This document shows, in pieces, positions 4,018 through 48,870 of a DNA stretch of 64,000 nt; position 1 is the first letter of the stretch, and the number at the start of each line of letters is the position of its first letter. The stretch spans positions 62,001 to 126,000 of the forward strand of contig JADFNE010000004.1 of assembly GCA_022563535.1 (NCBI GenBank). The letters run 5' to 3'. This DNA is from Myxococcales bacterium (lineage in GTDB: Bacteria > Myxococcota_A > UBA9160 > UBA4427). Below the pieces are notes generated by a model. It did not search any database, was not told the DNA's origin, and saw nothing but the letters and a program-made list of their open reading frames with translations. The translations under genes and the position numbers were made by a program.

Positions 4018-4749
4018 ATGGTTCGTCAATTCACTTGGATCGCAATCTTCACCCTGGCCGCGGCCTTGACCGCTGTAGCCCACAATGAAGCCCTGGCTCG
4101 CGATCTAGCCATCGACCACGGGGATGCAGACCCGCGCAATCGCGCATCGTTCTACGTCGAGGTGATGCGGGAGGTGAGCAATGATTGGGCGGTCGCGCGG
4201 CTTTCGATCGTCGAAGAAGGCAAGGACCCCGCACGCCTGGCCGACGCCGTCAATCGCCGGATGACGACAGCAGTCGCCGCGGCCAAAGCGGTAGCCGAGG
4301 TCGAGGTCCAGACCGGCGCTTACACGACACGTCCGATCCATCGCGACGGGCGGATCGTTCGCTGGCACGCTCAGCAGGAACTCCGCATCGAATCCCGAAA
4401 CGTGGATCAGCTTTCCGAGTTGATCGGTGAACTCCAAAGCGATTCGGTGCTGCTATCGGGAATTTCCTTTTCGGTGAGCAGCAAAACCCGCAAATCGCTG
4501 GAAGACGAACTCATCGAAGAAGCGCTCGGCGCTTTTCGCTCCCGCGCTGCGCTGGTCGCCAAAGGTCTGGGGGCCGGGGATTGGTCGCTCGTCGGACTTT
4601 CGATCAACGGCGATGGTCATGCCCCGGAGAGATTTCCCAGGCGGGCCAGAGCCGAAATGGCCATGATGACAGCCGGCGCGCCTCCAGCCCTCGAAGCCGG
4701 TTCAAGTGAAATCCGAATCCGGATCGACGGCACCATCGAACTCGACTGA
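4018..4749 (+). CDS. SIMPL-domain (DUF541) periplasmic protein
   Basis: A predicted secreted protein of the SIMPL/DUF541 family, whose biochemical role is poorly defined (members have been tied to oxidative stress and envelope functions). The N-terminus has a short basic stretch and a hydrophobic helix ending near the Ala-rich ALTAVAHNEALA, a likely type I signal peptide. The rest matches the family pattern: paired beta-strand/helix units with a VxxRxLR-like repeat of about 40 residues (residues 45-240). A strong ribosome site (cggagg) lies 8 bp before the ATG. The 3' end overlaps the converging membrane-protein gene by 48 bp. The family call is made from overall pattern and length. Confidence 0.8.
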   Translation: MVRQFTWIAIFTLAAALTAVAHNEALARDLAIDHGDADPRNRASFYVEVMREVSNDWAVARLSIVEEGKDPARLADAVNRRMTTAVAAAKAVAEVEVQTGAYTTRPIHRDGRIVRWHAQQELRIESRNVDQLSELIGELQSDSVLLSGISFSVSSKTRKSLEDELIEEALGAFRSRAALVAKGLGAGDWSLVGLSINGDGHAPERFPRRARAEMAMMTAGAPPALEAGSSEIRIRIDGTIELD

Positions 4750-5160
4750 TCCGGCGTTCGCGTTGCGCAGCATTCCAACCATGATCCACAACAGGACACC
4801 TGCCGGCAGATATACACCGGCAAGGTCGAGTCCCCAGTGGTTGCTGGGCAAGTTGCCAACGCTGGTGTCGTAGACGTGAAGCAGCGCATGGGATCCCAGA
4901 AAGACCGTCGACATTGCAACCAGGGGCAGGCGGTAGCGGTTGGATCGCGCCGCCCAGATGAGACCGGCGCCAGCGGTGAGAAACGCACAACCAATATCGC
5001 GAACGAAGTGTGGATTGAACGGTCCGGTATCGGGGACCCCGGCTGGCAGTTCGTTGTACCAGTGCATTGGCCCCACGAACATCCAGAGTGCGTTTGCGAT
5101 CATTCCTGCGCCCAGGATCATGAAGATCCACCCGTGCAGATCGAGCTTGGTATTGCTCAT
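4702..5160 (-). CDS. Small four-helix membrane protein, unknown function
   Basis: A 152-residue protein with four predicted membrane helices (about residues 8-28, 53-72, 77-95 and 112-130) and a polar C-terminus. The conserved-looking central stretch NPHFVRDIGCAF and the HALLH and SNHWGLD motifs carry several His and Asp residues. I recognise this arrangement from uncharacterised proteobacterial inner-membrane proteins but know no function. AGGGGAC 6 bp before the ATG at 5160 supports the start. The last 16 codons overlap the end of the convergent SIMPL-domain gene. Confidence 0.75.
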   Translation of the reverse strand: MSNTKLDLHGWIFMILGAGMIANALWMFVGPMHWYNELPAGVPDTGPFNPHFVRDIGCAFLTAGAGLIWAARSNRYRLPLVAMSTVFLGSHALLHVYDTSVGNLPSNHWGLDLAGVYLPAGVLLWIMVGMLRNANAGSVEFDGAVDPDSDFT

Positions 5161-43090: not shown

Positions 43091-44875
43091 TCAGGGGAGA
43101 TGCTTGAACTCTGGAAGCATCCTCTGGAGTCGACAGATCGTGGCGTCCCCCAGCGCACCCGGCTCAATCCGGCCCAGCCAGACCGCGCGAACAATCGTCT
43201 CGCTGTGTTGTCGACTCTCCCGTTTCGTCTCCGGAAACAAGCACTGGCGAATGACCATGTCAGTCTCGAGCATGATTTCAATGAGACCGTCGAGTTCTCC
43301 GTCTCGATACATGAGCCCGTGAACGACTACGGGTTCGGAAATGCTGTGCGGTAAAATCGTCTCGAACTGAAGTCCTCCTCCGTACTCGGGTGCGGATAAT
43401 TCGATGCGCGTCTCTGCAATTGCTTCGGGTTCAAAGTCGGGATCTCCAGCTACATGTTCCTCTGCATCGATGGCTGATTGGTAAAACCGCGTCAGCTGAG
43501 ATCCGAGCCTCGGAGTTGGTGCGGTTCGCCATAGAGCTCTCGTGATGCTGACCGCTCGCTGCGGGATGCCGACGCGATAGTAGAGCGTGGCGAGCGTCTC
43601 CTGAAGCGGAAAGCCGGGGTCGCCGGCGAGCAGATCCTCCATTTTGTCCAACGCGAGCTGCAACGATCGCTTTGGCGCAGAGGCCGAGGTGGCGAGTACC
43701 CAGGAGTAGTAGTGGCGCGCTTCATCGGAAATGTTGGGCAAAGCGAGACGATCGTGGATCAAGATGATGTAGGGCCTGGTCCCAGACAACCCGTTGTTCC
43801 TGATCGCCAAGCCGGCCGCAAGCATCGCAATCCCAGCCACGATCACTACCGCGGGGGTGAGTTTCGAGTTTTTCGGTAGCGGGACCCGACGACTTCCCCG
43901 CGCAGCTCCGATCAAGAAAATCAACCCCGTCAGCCCGCCGACCAGGTGTGCCATCACAACTTGGTCGCTCAAGAGTCCCTGTGCGTAGACCTGCGATACG
44001 AGGAGTATCCAAAAGGGCCACGGACTGCGGAACCCGACGGGGAAATCGTTTCTTCTTCGCAGCGAGAGAAACGCGTAGGCCCCGCCCAGCCCCCAAACCG
44101 CGGCAGAACTCCCCATTGAGATGAAGACTTGCGATTCCTCGCAGGAAAGATTCAGTAGAAGAACCGCTGAGTAGCCCGCGACTCCGGAGAGAAACAGCAT
44201 CAGCGCCAGCCGTCTGGGGCCAATTGAGGCTTCGACGATCCAACCCAAAACGAGGCAAACCATCGAGTTCTGCAGCAGGTGCGACAGATCGATGTGCAAG
44301 AAATTTGCGGCCACCAATCTAAACACTTCGCCCGACGCGACGAGCCCAGCGACGAAGGCGCCGTACCGCAATTGGCCTTCAAGACCATGAGAATCAACCC
44401 GGTTGCTGACGAACCAGTGAATGAGTCCGAACAACGCCACCAGGCCGACACTGAACCATGGGAATTTGAGCAGGCGTTCGAAAAAGAGCGATCGCCGATC
44501 AATCCGATGGAGCATCGATGCGCCACCGGGCTGCTTCGAGACATATCGCAGCAATTCCGCGGAGAGAAGTTCGAGCGCTGCGGGGTTGGTCAGGTCGCCG
44601 CTTCGAATGCATACCGGAGTGGACCGCATCGATCCAACGATCAGAACTTCGAAAAAGCGGCGCCTCAAAAATACCAGCGAGTGGATCTGCGAGAGCGAAA
44701 CTGACGTGGACCGTTGGAAATTGAATCGCATCGGCAATTCGAGACGGTCTTCGTAGATCTCCACATACACCTTGCATGCTTTGGATACATCATCGAAGAA
44801 GAAATTCTGCGACGCGATCTGCTGTCTCAGGACAGGCACTCCTGACTCCACCGGGGGCAACAGCGATGTAGTCAT
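43091..44875 (-). CDS. Rhomboid-family intramembrane serine protease with extra domains
   Basis: A 594-residue protein. Residues 1-125 form a soluble N-terminal domain; about 140-330 is the rhomboid core. In this core a His/Asn site lies in HIDLSHLLQN (His199, Asn203), the nucleophile Ser257 in SMGSSAAVWGLGGAYAF, and the catalytic His310 in MAHLVGGLTG, matching the GlpG-type H-x3-N, GxSx and AH motifs. After a further helix near 345 the C-terminal 240 residues are soluble and TPR-like. The gene starts 16 bp after the RHS gene stop on the same strand, so the two are an operon. I infer that it cleaves the RHS C-terminal tail; no rhomboid is otherwise expected here. Confidence 0.88.
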   Translation of the reverse strand: MTTSLLPPVESGVPVLRQQIASQNFFFDDVSKACKVYVEIYEDRLELPMRFNFQRSTSVSLSQIHSLVFLRRRFFEVLIVGSMRSTPVCIRSGDLTNPAALELLSAELLRYVSKQPGGASMLHRIDRRSLFFERLLKFPWFSVGLVALFGLIHWFVSNRVDSHGLEGQLRYGAFVAGLVASGEVFRLVAANFLHIDLSHLLQNSMVCLVLGWIVEASIGPRRLALMLFLSGVAGYSAVLLLNLSCEESQVFISMGSSAAVWGLGGAYAFLSLRRRNDFPVGFRSPWPFWILLVSQVYAQGLLSDQVVMAHLVGGLTGLIFLIGAARGSRRVPLPKNSKLTPAVVIVAGIAMLAAGLAIRNNGLSGTRPYIILIHDRLALPNISDEARHYYSWVLATSASAPKRSLQLALDKMEDLLAGDPGFPLQETLATLYYRVGIPQRAVSITRALWRTAPTPRLGSQLTRFYQSAIDAEEHVAGDPDFEPEAIAETRIELSAPEYGGGLQFETILPHSISEPVVVHGLMYRDGELDGLIEIMLETDMVIRQCLFPETKRESRQHSETIVRAVWLGRIEPGALGDATICRLQRMLPEFKHLP

Positions 44876-44890
44876 CAATTGCCTCTCCCG

Positions 44891-47800
44891 TCAGCTCCCA
44901 CGTGACGCAGTCTTCGAACGACGTGCCGGCGACCGGCGAGTTCGGAGCCAAAACGCGAGCGCTAGCAGCGGCGCGATTTCAAATCCCAACCCGCACGACC
45001 AATCCACAGCAGGGCCGCTTCCCGTGGAAGCCCCGGTCGAAACACCCGTGTTCTTGGTCCCGCTGGAGCAATTCATCTTGCACGTCCCATTTCCAGGCCG
45101 TTTGCCTCGGGAACCACTCCTCGAGCCGTTGAGCGCGGGTGAGGTCTGCGTGCTGGGAATCTTTGTCATCGTCTCTCTCGTAACCTCGTAGTGGAACTCA
45201 GCGTGAGCGACGAATATGTTGACCCCGAATCCGCCGCCCGTTGTCGTGGTCTTTAATTCATATCCAATCGGGGGCGAGCTCGTCTGTTCAGCCCCACCTG
45301 GATCCCAGAACCGCACCGGATTCCCCAGCGTGTAGCTGTACTGATTGATGATCTGAGAAATCGGGTCTCGCGACAGAAACCGCCGCGCGACTGGATCGTA
45401 AATGCGCTTTCCGATGACGACCAATTCATCGACGTGGGCTCCCGCCGCGAAGCCCCTGCTACTTTCATCGCTGCCAGTCGTAGTGACGCGTTCGTAACCC
45501 GAGTAGTGATGATGCGCCTTCACAGCGCCTTCGTCATCGAGCATCAACTTGCTGTTGCCTCGGAAGTCGAAGAGCCGGTACTCGTGAGTAGAATCGTCGA
45601 TCCGACTTACGGCCCAGCCGAGGTCGAGCCTTTGATTGCTTCCGAATTCGTCTTCAACCAACTCGCCGCCGTACTTCCAATGGGCCTCCGCTCCTGCGAC
45701 CGTCGCTGAAATTTTTCTTCCGAACGAGTCCCATTGCATTTCGACGTCGCTTCCCAGCGCCGTCATTCGCCCCATTCCGTTCCAGTGGATCGGCACACCG
45801 TTGCGCGCGGTGACATAACCCGCTTCATCGTACTCGTACGCGAGGACCAGCGAACTGTCGGCTTCCATGCTGGCCTTTTCAATTCCGAACTTCTCGATTC
45901 CGACTTTTGCGAGTCCGAACTTCTCGATGCGAAGTAGACGGTTGCGCTCGGGGTTGTAGATGAAGTCTCCGGCTGACGACGCTTCCAGATTGCTGAGTTC
46001 GTCATAGTCGTAGAACTCATCGACCACGAGCCAGATGCCGCGCGAGTCAGCGATCAGTCGCTCGGAACTCCGATCTTCGAGTTGATACTCCGTGTAGGAG
46101 GTTGCGAGGACTCCGATCAGACTTTCGGTCCGCTCGATCTTGCAGCGACTGGCGGGCAGCACGATGTCGCAGGTCGCAGTCGAGACGTCCATCGAGGCGA
46201 CGAGTTGCTGCGCTTCGTTGGTCGCCGTGAACCCGGTGAGATCGCCGGTCGCTGGGTCGAAATGGTTCACGACCGCAACGCCATTGCCGAAGAGGATTTC
46301 GTCTACGCTGCCTGCCGCGAATGTCAAATTGAGGATCGCAACACCGTCCTCGCGAACCGCGATCTGCCGATTGGCAAGATCGTAGTCACGCTCAAAGCTC
46401 CGCAGAAGCGTTCCGTCGGCCCGCCAGTATTGTTTCAGATCGACTCGCCCCCGCAGATCGCGACTCACGCTGACGGCTTCGCCGTCGGGATAGTGAATTT
46501 CGTCGACAAATCCCGCGGCGTCGTAGGAGTACGTTTCGGGGACCATCGCGTGTGCCGTGTCGCGAATCGCGACGAGCCGTGCGTTTTCGTATTCCAACAC
46601 CGCCATCGAATCGACTTCGCCAGCATCGGTCCAGTCCAGCTCGTAGCGCACGGAAACAACTTCGCCTGGGCTGCGATACGTGAGGCGTGTCGCCATCCCG
46701 TTGGGCTTCAAGATCGCAACAATCCGACCGTTGGCGTCGTATTGAACCATGGTACTGGTCCACGAACCGTCGACCCGGCTTCTTTCTTCGACTCTGCGAC
46801 CCAGGGTGTCGTAGTGAAACTCGGTATCTCCGCCATAGGGGCGCTCGATCAGGGTACTTTGGTGGTCCGCCCGCCATTCGATCCGCAGCTCGCTTTGCAG
46901 TCCCGGCGCCGACGCCCCGCCGGCTTCGAGCACAAGCGCCGCGATGTTGCGATCTGCATCATACGAGCGCTCGACAATTCCCCCCTGGCCTATCGAGAGC
47001 GAGCCAAGGTGCGGGTCCCGATCGAGCAAACCGTCGGCTTCGAGGAGGTTGCCCAGGACATCGTAGGTGTAGTTCACCGTGGTGGTCCCGCGCGTCACGC
47101 TGCGAAAATGGCCGTGATCTCCACGGTCCGAATACACGGTCACGACGCCGGCTGGATCGGTCAGCGTCAAATCTCCGGCCGCGTCATAGGCCAGGGTCGT
47201 GAGATCTCCGGTTCCTGTCGCGACCGACTCGAGAACGCCTTCACTCGAGTAGCTTCGGCTCTCGATCAAGCCGAGGTCTTCTTCGATTCTCGCGATTGCA
47301 CGCCTGTACCGGTTCTCGCGATTCTCCGCCGGCGAAGGCGCAAAGGTGCGAATGATGATGTTTCCGGAGGGCTGCGTCTCGGTGGCGACGTCACTGCCCA
47401 CCACATCGAAAAGACGCTCGACACCCGAGGGCGAAAGCTCGGAGATGCGATCGTAGCTATCTCCCCGCCACTGCCACCTCCAGAACTCGCCAGCGGAATT
47501 TTGCTTGCTCCACATGCGCAGATTCAGATCGAACGAGTAGACGGAAGTGCCGCCCATGGGATCGGTCACATTGGTTTTCGCGATTCCGATCGAATCCATC
47601 CCGCCGTAAACAAACCGCCAGAACGGGTCGCCTTCCCCGATCTGCACGACCTTCATGATTGCGTTGGTCGTTCCGTAGTAGTGGTATTCGATCCGCTCGT
47701 CGTGGGAGTTTGTGATGGCGACAAGGCGGCCGGCCTCGTCGTATTCATAGCGAGTTCCCCCCCAACCGTTGGCGAGGTCCAGGGCATCGCGTGCCGAAGC

Positions 47801-48571
47801 AATGCGCTCCGTATCTGCGTCATAGGTATAGAGAGCCGAGCGCCCCGCGAGGTCATCGACCGCCGACAAGCGCCCCCTCGCGTCGTAGGTCAATGAATAG
47901 AGGGTCGAGCAATCTGTATCGCTCGTGCACTGGTCGATTCTTGCGAGTCGGCTTTCCGCTTCAGGGCTCGATCTCACAAAACGAAGTGCCGGGAACGCAG
48001 CACTGATCCAATTCACGGAGGCCAACTTCCCCGCCTCGTCGAACTCGTGCACGAGCCCCCCACTTGTCCGAACGGCATCGTGACTGTGCCAGACCCAATG
48101 GGATCCGGGCACGGGTTGGCCTATTCCGCTGCCGATTTTGAAATTGAACCGATAGCCGGTGTCATCCGTAAAGATGGGATCCATTGTCGGCTGATCTCTG
48201 AGCAGGCTGGAGTCGAAGTTCCAGTGCCACGCCCCTGCGGCCGAGTTCCACACGGCCTCAACCTGCCAATCGCCAATGCGGGTATCGACCGCTAGATCAC
48301 CGCGCACAACGAACAAGTTTCCGCCATAGGCATTCACGTGCCCACCGGGTACCGGGAGCATGAGGTCTTCGAAGACCCGAGCCACACCGGAGCGCGGTTG
48401 CGGAATGCGCAATCCGGTTTCCCAGGCGGAGCAACCCAAGCACCCCATATAGAGCGCAGCTGCGGCCACCAGCACGAGCACCCGCGCAAACCCATTGAGC
48501 CGACGCGTGTTGTACTCAAAAGTAATTGAACGCAAAACTGAACTGCATGCGAGAACGACACCGCGCGCCAT
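44891..48571 (-). CDS. RHS/YD-repeat surface protein with C-terminal Cys-Gly-TM-Arg sorting tail
   Basis: A 1226-residue protein with an N-terminal hydrophobic export helix (VLVLVAAAALYMGCLGC). From about residue 190 to 1000 many YD repeats are visible (TYDARGRLSAVDDL, YEYDEAGRLVAITN, YDTLGRRVEER). The RHS core follows: RIYDPVARRFLSRDPI and NPVRFWDPGG. The 120-residue tail is Ser/Thr/Gly-rich with several Cys, and ends DWSCGLGFEIAPLLALAFWLRTRR, a Cys-Gly, membrane helix and Arg cluster like the myxobacterial GC_trans_RRR sorting tail. No toxin-like domain is visible. The start is likely ATG 48571 (a GTG at 48592 also fits). The rhomboid gene follows by 16 bp. It is an exported, probably surface-anchored protein. 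Confidence 0.9.
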   Translation of the reverse strand: MARGVVLACSSVLRSITFEYNTRRLNGFARVLVLVAAAALYMGCLGCSAWETGLRIPQPRSGVARVFEDLMLPVPGGHVNAYGGNLFVVRGDLAVDTRIGDWQVEAVWNSAAGAWHWNFDSSLLRDQPTMDPIFTDDTGYRFNFKIGSGIGQPVPGSHWVWHSHDAVRTSGGLVHEFDEAGKLASVNWISAAFPALRFVRSSPEAESRLARIDQCTSDTDCSTLYSLTYDARGRLSAVDDLAGRSALYTYDADTERIASARDALDLANGWGGTRYEYDEAGRLVAITNSHDERIEYHYYGTTNAIMKVVQIGEGDPFWRFVYGGMDSIGIAKTNVTDPMGGTSVYSFDLNLRMWSKQNSAGEFWRWQWRGDSYDRISELSPSGVERLFDVVGSDVATETQPSGNIIIRTFAPSPAENRENRYRRAIARIEEDLGLIESRSYSSEGVLESVATGTGDLTTLAYDAAGDLTLTDPAGVVTVYSDRGDHGHFRSVTRGTTTVNYTYDVLGNLLEADGLLDRDPHLGSLSIGQGGIVERSYDADRNIAALVLEAGGASAPGLQSELRIEWRADHQSTLIERPYGGDTEFHYDTLGRRVEERSRVDGSWTSTMVQYDANGRIVAILKPNGMATRLTYRSPGEVVSVRYELDWTDAGEVDSMAVLEYENARLVAIRDTAHAMVPETYSYDAAGFVDEIHYPDGEAVSVSRDLRGRVDLKQYWRADGTLLRSFERDYDLANRQIAVREDGVAILNLTFAAGSVDEILFGNGVAVVNHFDPATGDLTGFTATNEAQQLVASMDVSTATCDIVLPASRCKIERTESLIGVLATSYTEYQLEDRSSERLIADSRGIWLVVDEFYDYDELSNLEASSAGDFIYNPERNRLLRIEKFGLAKVGIEKFGIEKASMEADSSLVLAYEYDEAGYVTARNGVPIHWNGMGRMTALGSDVEMQWDSFGRKISATVAGAEAHWKYGGELVEDEFGSNQRLDLGWAVSRIDDSTHEYRLFDFRGNSKLMLDDEGAVKAHHHYSGYERVTTTGSDESSRGFAAGAHVDELVVIGKRIYDPVARRFLSRDPISQIINQYSYTLGNPVRFWDPGGAEQTSSPPIGYELKTTTTGGGFGVNIFVAHAEFHYEVTRETMTKIPSTQTSPALNGSRSGSRGKRPGNGTCKMNCSSGTKNTGVSTGASTGSGPAVDWSCGLGFEIAPLLALAFWLRTRRSPARRSKTASRGS
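45885..45928. repeat. 14-bp direct repeat inside the RHS gene, 30-bp period
   Basis: ccgaacttctcgat occurs at 45885-45898 and 45915-45928, in frame, giving a 10-residue repeat around IEKFG in the protein. It lies just before the final YD repeats and looks like a recent slippage or duplication. Confidence 0.75.
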
Positions 48572-48870
48572 CCCACCCCCTGTCGCTGACACAGACTCGC
48601 GGCGCGCGTCCTTGCATTCACTGTTACCACTGCAGAACGTTCAAAACGTGCAGATGGATTTCGAATGCGAGCGGGGTGTTGACACTATGGCCAGTTCATA
48701 CCGAGCGAATTTCTAGCCGGAACCTCAATTGTGAATTGCGCCAGATCGGATTGGCTTCGTTGGCCTCGTCTGACATTTTTTCGAGTAGCACAGCGCCGGG
48801 ATGGCCACGAGCAATCGGCTGAGGATTGCTCGAAATGGTTCTGATTGGTCGGACCCCAAACCACCGGTCC

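Follow-up and report, generated by a model that had tools for sequence, protein, structure and literature searches.

Why should a rhomboid protease be encoded directly behind an RHS protein that ends in a membrane-spanning tail, at the position where polymorphic toxins carry their toxin? The question is raised by two adjacent genes in a 64,000-nucleotide stretch of Myxococcales bacterium DNA (assembly GCA_022563535.1, contig JADFNE010000004.1, positions 62,001 to 126,000; hereafter the window), which a sequence-only reading had described as an operon of one substrate and one protease. Our analysis of the window, its genome and 80 genomes of its order makes it reasonably likely, in our judgment, that RHS and the rhomboid form a dedicated substrate/protease pair, in which the rhomboid would remove the C-terminal tail of a lipidated RHS surface protein.

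Both genes are on the minus strand, at the location first proposed for them. The rhomboid gene had been placed correctly, and the start given for the RHS gene, 48571, proved to be the first ATG of a frame that opens at a GTG at 48592. From this GTG the gene (44891–48592) encodes a 1233-residue RHS/YD-repeat protein, the only Rhs_assc_core protein found in a search of the window's genome, which exceeded the cut-offs of PF05593 (4.6e-23), TIGR01643 and TIGR03696 (42.9 bits; cut-off, 32.5). Its N-terminal hydrophobic signal (48431–48490) has a lipobox-like Gly-Cys end at residue 54. This Cys54 is invariant in 22/22 aligned orthologues, preceded by a hydrophobic run and nearly always by a small residue, with a variable position −3; the region fits a lipoprotein signal, suggesting that RHS is probably lipidated at its N-terminus. 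Nearly all of the named orthologues are from metagenome-assembled genomes (MAGs), of Myxococcota, deltaproteobacterial or unassigned proteobacterial origin. The RHS-associated core, the end of which (45293–45481) aligned with TIGR03696 at residues 1038–1100, was intact up to the DPGG of its terminal GNPVRFWDPGG at residue 1100, as had been noted. In the toxin's place it is followed by a 96-residue Cys-containing, Ser/Thr/Gly-rich linker (45005–45292), which matched no Pfam or NCBIfam domain, and then by the C-terminal tail (44894–45004) DWSCGLGFEIAPLLALAFWLRTRRSPARRSKTASRGS, with Cys1200 at 44993–44995. The core also contains, at about 45,860–45,915 on the minus strand, a short internal repeat, KFGLAKVGIEKFGIEKASM, absent from the orthologue consensus.

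The tail consists of a Cys-Gly motif (CGLGFE in the window protein), a transmembrane segment and an Arg cluster. When a hidden Markov model (HMM) was built solely from non-RHS tails (22, from unrelated proteins of the order), the window RHS tail scored 36.7 bits (E 1.1e-10 for 1000 sequences), whereas 1000 shuffled versions of the 60 residues scored reached 8.3 bits at most, indicating a real shared sorting-type tail rather than a chance resemblance. In the alignment of 28 such tails, Cys, Gly, Gly and Glu are invariant, mostly as C-G-L/I-G-x-E or C-G-L-x-G-x-E, and are followed by a hydrophobic segment with an Arg cluster behind it. Conversely, an HMM of the RHS tails found matches in 62 of the 80 genomes, at up to 22 per genome and mostly in proteins unrelated to RHS, including DGxDNDGDG-repeat proteins. 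The motif, the transmembrane helix and the basic C-terminal cluster are thus common to unrelated proteins, as in known tripartite sorting tails. In the window's genome (98% complete) RHS was the only carrier, the next match having an E-value of 0.2–0.3, so that the concern that many other proteins of this genome might share the tail did not materialize. The shared tail, confirmed by the non-RHS HMM and the sole one of its kind in the genome, matches the single-target rule published for GlyGly-CTERM proteins (PMC3237569) and supports a dedicated pair.

Although the sequence-only reading was right about a sorting-type tail, the GC_trans_RRR/MYXO-CTERM label it had attached to it did not hold. 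The RHS tail matched none of the NCBIfam sorting-tail models, and searches of the window's genome with TIGR03382 and TIGR03901 (MYXO-CTERM) missed it; reciprocally, the CGxGxE model did not recognize the MYXO-CTERM tail of TraA, and both names were therefore ruled out. Among the 28 CGxGxE tails, only one or two reached even weak scores with any NCBIfam CTERM model. As judged from these sequence comparisons, CGxGxE-transmembrane-Arg is a distinct sorting-type tail, outside NCBIfam coverage and previously unmodelled. CGxGxE tails of the order form the C-termini of L190–L212 (alignment A6). The window's genome also contains PEP-CTERM-like tails (VPEPG, transmembrane segment, RRR; L034, L142), as does the gene upstream of RHS in G002 (L038:13661–14524); such tails in the same genome suggest that an exosortase system probably coexists.

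The rhomboid gene (43091–44878, minus strand; 595 residues; PF01694, 8.6e-18) lies directly downstream of RHS on the same strand. The intergenic gap (44881–44890) measures 12 base pairs (bp) if translation begins at a TTG and 15 bp if it begins at an ATG, instead of the 16 bp first reported; the ribosome-binding site GGGAGAGG lies just ahead of the start, with no terminator- or promoter-like site between the genes on this strand. The shared strand, the short gap and the lack of a terminator argue for a dedicated pair. In the TIGR03902 and PF01694 alignments, the rhomboid core (residues 174–322; 43913–44359) has His195, His200 and Asn204, Ser258 (44105–44107) and His311 (43946–43948), all invariant among five aligned RHS-linked rhomboids. 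The TM4 Ser, TM6 His and TM2 Asn/His of rhomboid intramembrane proteases are thus present, and the complete Ser/His site recognized earlier was confirmed. The core is flanked by an N-terminal strand-rich domain and a C-terminal extension of helical and beta structure, both read from the secondary structure of a low-confidence AlphaFold model (5 aligned rows; predicted local distance difference test (pLDDT) score, 52); a PDB sequence search with the rhomboid gave no useful match.

All 80 genomes of the order-level sample were searched for RHS homologues, which occurred in 44 of them, and 45 RHS loci were read. The early worry that homologous RHS genes might never lie beside a rhomboid was dispelled: in eight genomes, belonging to five genera in two families, the gene directly downstream of RHS on its strand encodes a rhomboid (the window's genome; G002 of the same genus; G014, G006 and G005, each from a different further genus of that family; and, in a second family, G065, G071 and G032 of a single genus). 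By our own estimate, based on 2–3 rhomboids per ~4500 genes, ~0.03 such cases would be expected by chance over the 45 loci. The RHS-linked rhomboid was not found beside tail-less RHS genes or in RHS-less genomes of the sample, and this distribution, together with the conserved catalytic residues, supports the dedicated pair. The linkage is conserved and larger than the sequence-only reading had known. In the rhomboid tree, 28 housekeeping rhomboids formed one clade (99/100) and all RHS-linked rhomboids fell outside it, which also favours a dedicated role; the latter had long branches and shared one origin in 28% of bootstrap trees. The housekeeping rhomboid has C-terminal TPR-like repeats (L002:1402–2832) and counterparts in most of the 80 genomes; the genes directly before it in L002, L040, L042, L044, L045 and L046, the loci read, resemble those for actD/actF-like subunits of alternative complex III, so this lineage is apparently linked to respiratory genes.

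Sorting-type enzymes in general also accompany the tail. They were present within 4 kb of 18 of the 32 tail-bearing RHS loci and of 0 of the 10 tail-less ones (Fisher p = 0.002), a difference that again argues for functional coupling in a dedicated pair, with tails reclassified by eye after the automatic tail classifier had given p = 0.08. The changes made by eye concerned two tails just under the hydrophobicity threshold, false hits without a Cys before the transmembrane segment, and the tail of L088 (G032), a Cys-Ser-Pro tail near 4,690–4,820 that lies in another reading frame than its RHS core owing to a frameshift that belongs either to the MAG or to the genome itself. In genus g15, three tail-bearing species have the rhomboid and a cassette of further enzymes and two tail-less species have neither, a comparison limited by the low identity of the tail-less RHS proteins to the others, about 40%, which keeps them from being clean orthologues.

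This cassette accompanies a second type of RHS tail, found in most other genera, which has Cys-Ser/Ala-Pro, a transmembrane segment about ten residues later, an Arg cluster and, in many cases, PLQ. A large number of these C[SA]P-tailed RHS genes adjoin a CPBP/Rce1-like protease gene (PF02517; MrtJ is among its best NCBIfam matches), a gene for an Lgt-like protein (PF01790; L081:9812–11032, L102:8371–9804, L115:1804–2829) or one for a polytopic protein of an unnamed family, here called GYGH, and in most genera these enzymes come with the RHS tail in place of or besides the rhomboid. All five genes, for CPBP, GYGH and Lgt-like proteins, RHS and rhomboid, are together in G005, G065 and G071. The GYGH family (L109:6363–7427, L081:9255–10238, L043:1141–2178, L122:14601–15584 and others; alignment A3) has invariant GYGH, SxWHxxEN and PxxYxFxxxHxxQT motifs and several further invariant His, and had no convincing match in Pfam, NCBIfam or the PDB; PDB searches with the GYGH profile and with the Lgt-like protein returned nothing useful, and the AlphaFold model of the family, from 4 rows, had a pLDDT of 46. 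It occurred in 20/80 genomes, usually next to the CPBP gene, and all 20 have RHS, either tail-bearing or truncated. By tail class, it was present in 17/20 genomes with C[SAT]P-type tails, in 0/6 with CGxGxE-tailed RHS and in 0/9 with tail-less RHS; the difference between the C[SAT]P-type and tail-less genomes gave p = 2e-5 with tail classes assigned by reading, a value that overstates independence because the genomes are related. The CPBP and GYGH genes adjoin each other, often with the Lgt-like gene, even when RHS is on another contig (L273, L276, L278 and L279).

These observations point to the Lgt-like protein linked to RHS as a candidate for the enzyme that lipidates Cys-type C-terminal tails. 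We also put forward, tentatively and as somewhat less probable than its opposite, the broader suggestion that the RHS-rhomboid pair of the window is a reduced form of a new sorting system of this Myxococcota order. Such a system would handle CGxGxE and C[SA]P...PLQ tails through a variable cassette of Lgt-like lipid transferase, CPBP protease, GYGH protein with its WHxxEN motif and rhomboid; its best-linked cargo would be a single RHS lipoprotein, and the Lgt-like protein would take the role of the missing enzyme that has been proposed to attach a lipid to Cys-type tails.

For the window itself, we propose that RHS would be exported by Sec and lipidated at Cys54 of its lipoprotein signal, and that its CGxGxE/transmembrane/Arg tail would hold it temporarily a second time, in the inner membrane. 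With a lipoprotein signal at one end and the tail at the other, the protein would be anchored at both ends until the tail is removed. The neighbouring rhomboid would cut the tail off at a site in or next to the membrane, freeing the folded RHS cage to reach the cell surface or the outer membrane; its new C-terminus might receive a lipid, as in the VesB/rhombosortase system.

Several findings weigh against this assignment. The Ser motif of the window rhomboid is GSSA, which is unusual compared to GxSG, and its TIGR03902 score of 38 bits is below the rhombosortase cut-off of 84; the other RHS-linked rhomboids scored 23–44 bits and the housekeeping paralogues, at 43–52, just as high. Being below the cut-off and no better than these paralogues, the window rhomboid was not filed as a rhombosortase, and TIGR03902 was rejected as a means of placing any RHS-linked rhomboid there, although the window enzyme may well work like one. 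The remaining findings concern the match between tail and enzyme. In six of the eight rhomboid genomes the RHS-linked rhomboid accompanies the other tail (C[SA]P...PLQ..., which in one genome lies in a different reading frame), so there is no strict one-to-one match of tail to enzyme. G003, of the same genus as the window, has kept the tail (CGIGFEI) without an adjacent rhomboid and has only the housekeeping paralogue genome-wide. Genomes rich in the CGxGxE tail (10–22 proteins) mostly lack the RHS-linked lineage, and their tails must be handled by a different enzyme; the RHS-linked rhomboid was accordingly rejected as a general CGxGxE-tail enzyme. The strict one-to-one pairing first proposed is too simple for the wider group with its CPBP, Lgt-like and GYGH proteins.

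The same exceptions that weaken a strict pair, G003 and the tail-rich genomes, give its strongest competitor its force, namely that an unlinked enzyme (the housekeeping rhomboid or a CPBP protease) processes the tail and that the adjacent rhomboid acts elsewhere on RHS, for example in release or quality control, or is a clearance protease. A CPBP gene lies beside tail-bearing RHS in many genera, rhomboid-bearing genomes included, and the enzyme known to act on Cys-type tails is a CPBP protease, the myxosortase (PMC11980579). In the window's genome, however, the myxosortase core model found only two weak CPBP matches (E 7.5e-5 and 0.01), neither of them beside RHS, and the rhomboid tracks with the tails and not with tail-less RHS. 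We regard this explanation as unlikely, yet well worth keeping in mind beside the dedicated pair.

Considerably less probable is the possibility that the tail is a mere C-terminal membrane anchor and that RHS and the rhomboid are functionally unlinked neighbours by inherited synteny. Two species of the window's genus do share the surrounding genes (amidase, crotonase), and in that genus synteny by itself could be enough to maintain the pair. The recurrence of the pairing in five genera with differing surroundings, its excess over chance and its persistence with two tail sequences of different motifs largely refute this explanation. Least credible of all is an RHS toxin carrier with a membrane-acting toxin as its C-terminal region and the rhomboid as activator or immunity factor: RHS cores normally end in a toxin, and activation of other membrane proteins by rhomboids is known, but nothing in our results favours this arrangement: Pfam and NCBIfam matched no toxin family, the low-complexity linker leads only to a tail common to unrelated non-RHS proteins such as those with DGxDNDGDG repeats, and the next gene is the rhomboid and not a small variable gene of the immunity type.

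If the dedicated pair is correct, it offers a directly testable case, because few rhomboid proteases have known natural substrates and here a single predicted substrate is encoded next door. RHS cages, usually viewed as toxin carriers, would be coupled to surface anchoring, and the Lgt-like and CPBP genes beside RHS tails of the order would narrow the search for the enzyme believed to attach lipid to the Cys of C-terminal tails in Myxococcota to a concrete candidate.

Among known systems, RHS polymorphic toxins and bacterial teneurin-like proteins share with the window protein the YD-repeat shell and the apparent Sec/SPII lipoprotein nature, the two features compared, the latter being predicted for Myxococcota teneurin-like proteins (PMC13018210); the window RHS differs in having a sorting tail at its end and no C-terminal toxin domain found. 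MYXO-CTERM with its myxosortase MrtX (PMC11980579) and the two-gene JDVT-CTERM/MrtJ pair resemble it in a Cys tail ahead of a transmembrane segment and Arg cluster in Myxococcota, and the latter also in the CPBP genes, with MrtJ among their best NCBIfam matches, that adjoin tail-bearing RHS in relatives. In contrast, the window tail is of the CGxGxE type, which both MYXO-CTERM-related models miss, its adjacent enzyme is a rhomboid and not a CPBP protease, and none of the 80 genomes reached the myxosortase core cut-off. The closest parallel is rhombosortase/GlyGly-CTERM (PMC3237569; VesB/RssP, PMC6219818), where a rhomboid protease is likewise associated with a tripartite motif/transmembrane/basic tail. 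In genomes with a single GlyGly-CTERM target, target and rhombosortase are at most one gene apart in 16/21 cases and distant otherwise (Haft and Varghese 2011, PMC3237569), and the window genome, with one tail and an adjacent protease, follows the same pattern; in VesB, cleavage leaves a C-terminus to which glycerophosphoethanolamine becomes attached, and type II secretion takes the protein to the surface (PMC6219818). The published GlyGly-CTERM motif, however, excludes Cys, which is present in all 28 CGxGxE tails, and the window rhomboid is distinguished from rhombosortase by its sub-threshold score, its long extra N- and C-terminal domains and its predicted cargo, a probable RHS lipoprotein. 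The layout of a single target beside a rhomboid has therefore been known since 2011, contrary to the earlier view of the operon as undescribed, although RHS cargo is not mentioned in that work and we found no paper describing it. New elements are the Cys-type tail, its RHS cargo and the lineage to which the rhomboid belongs, together with the multi-enzyme neighbourhood seen in relatives.

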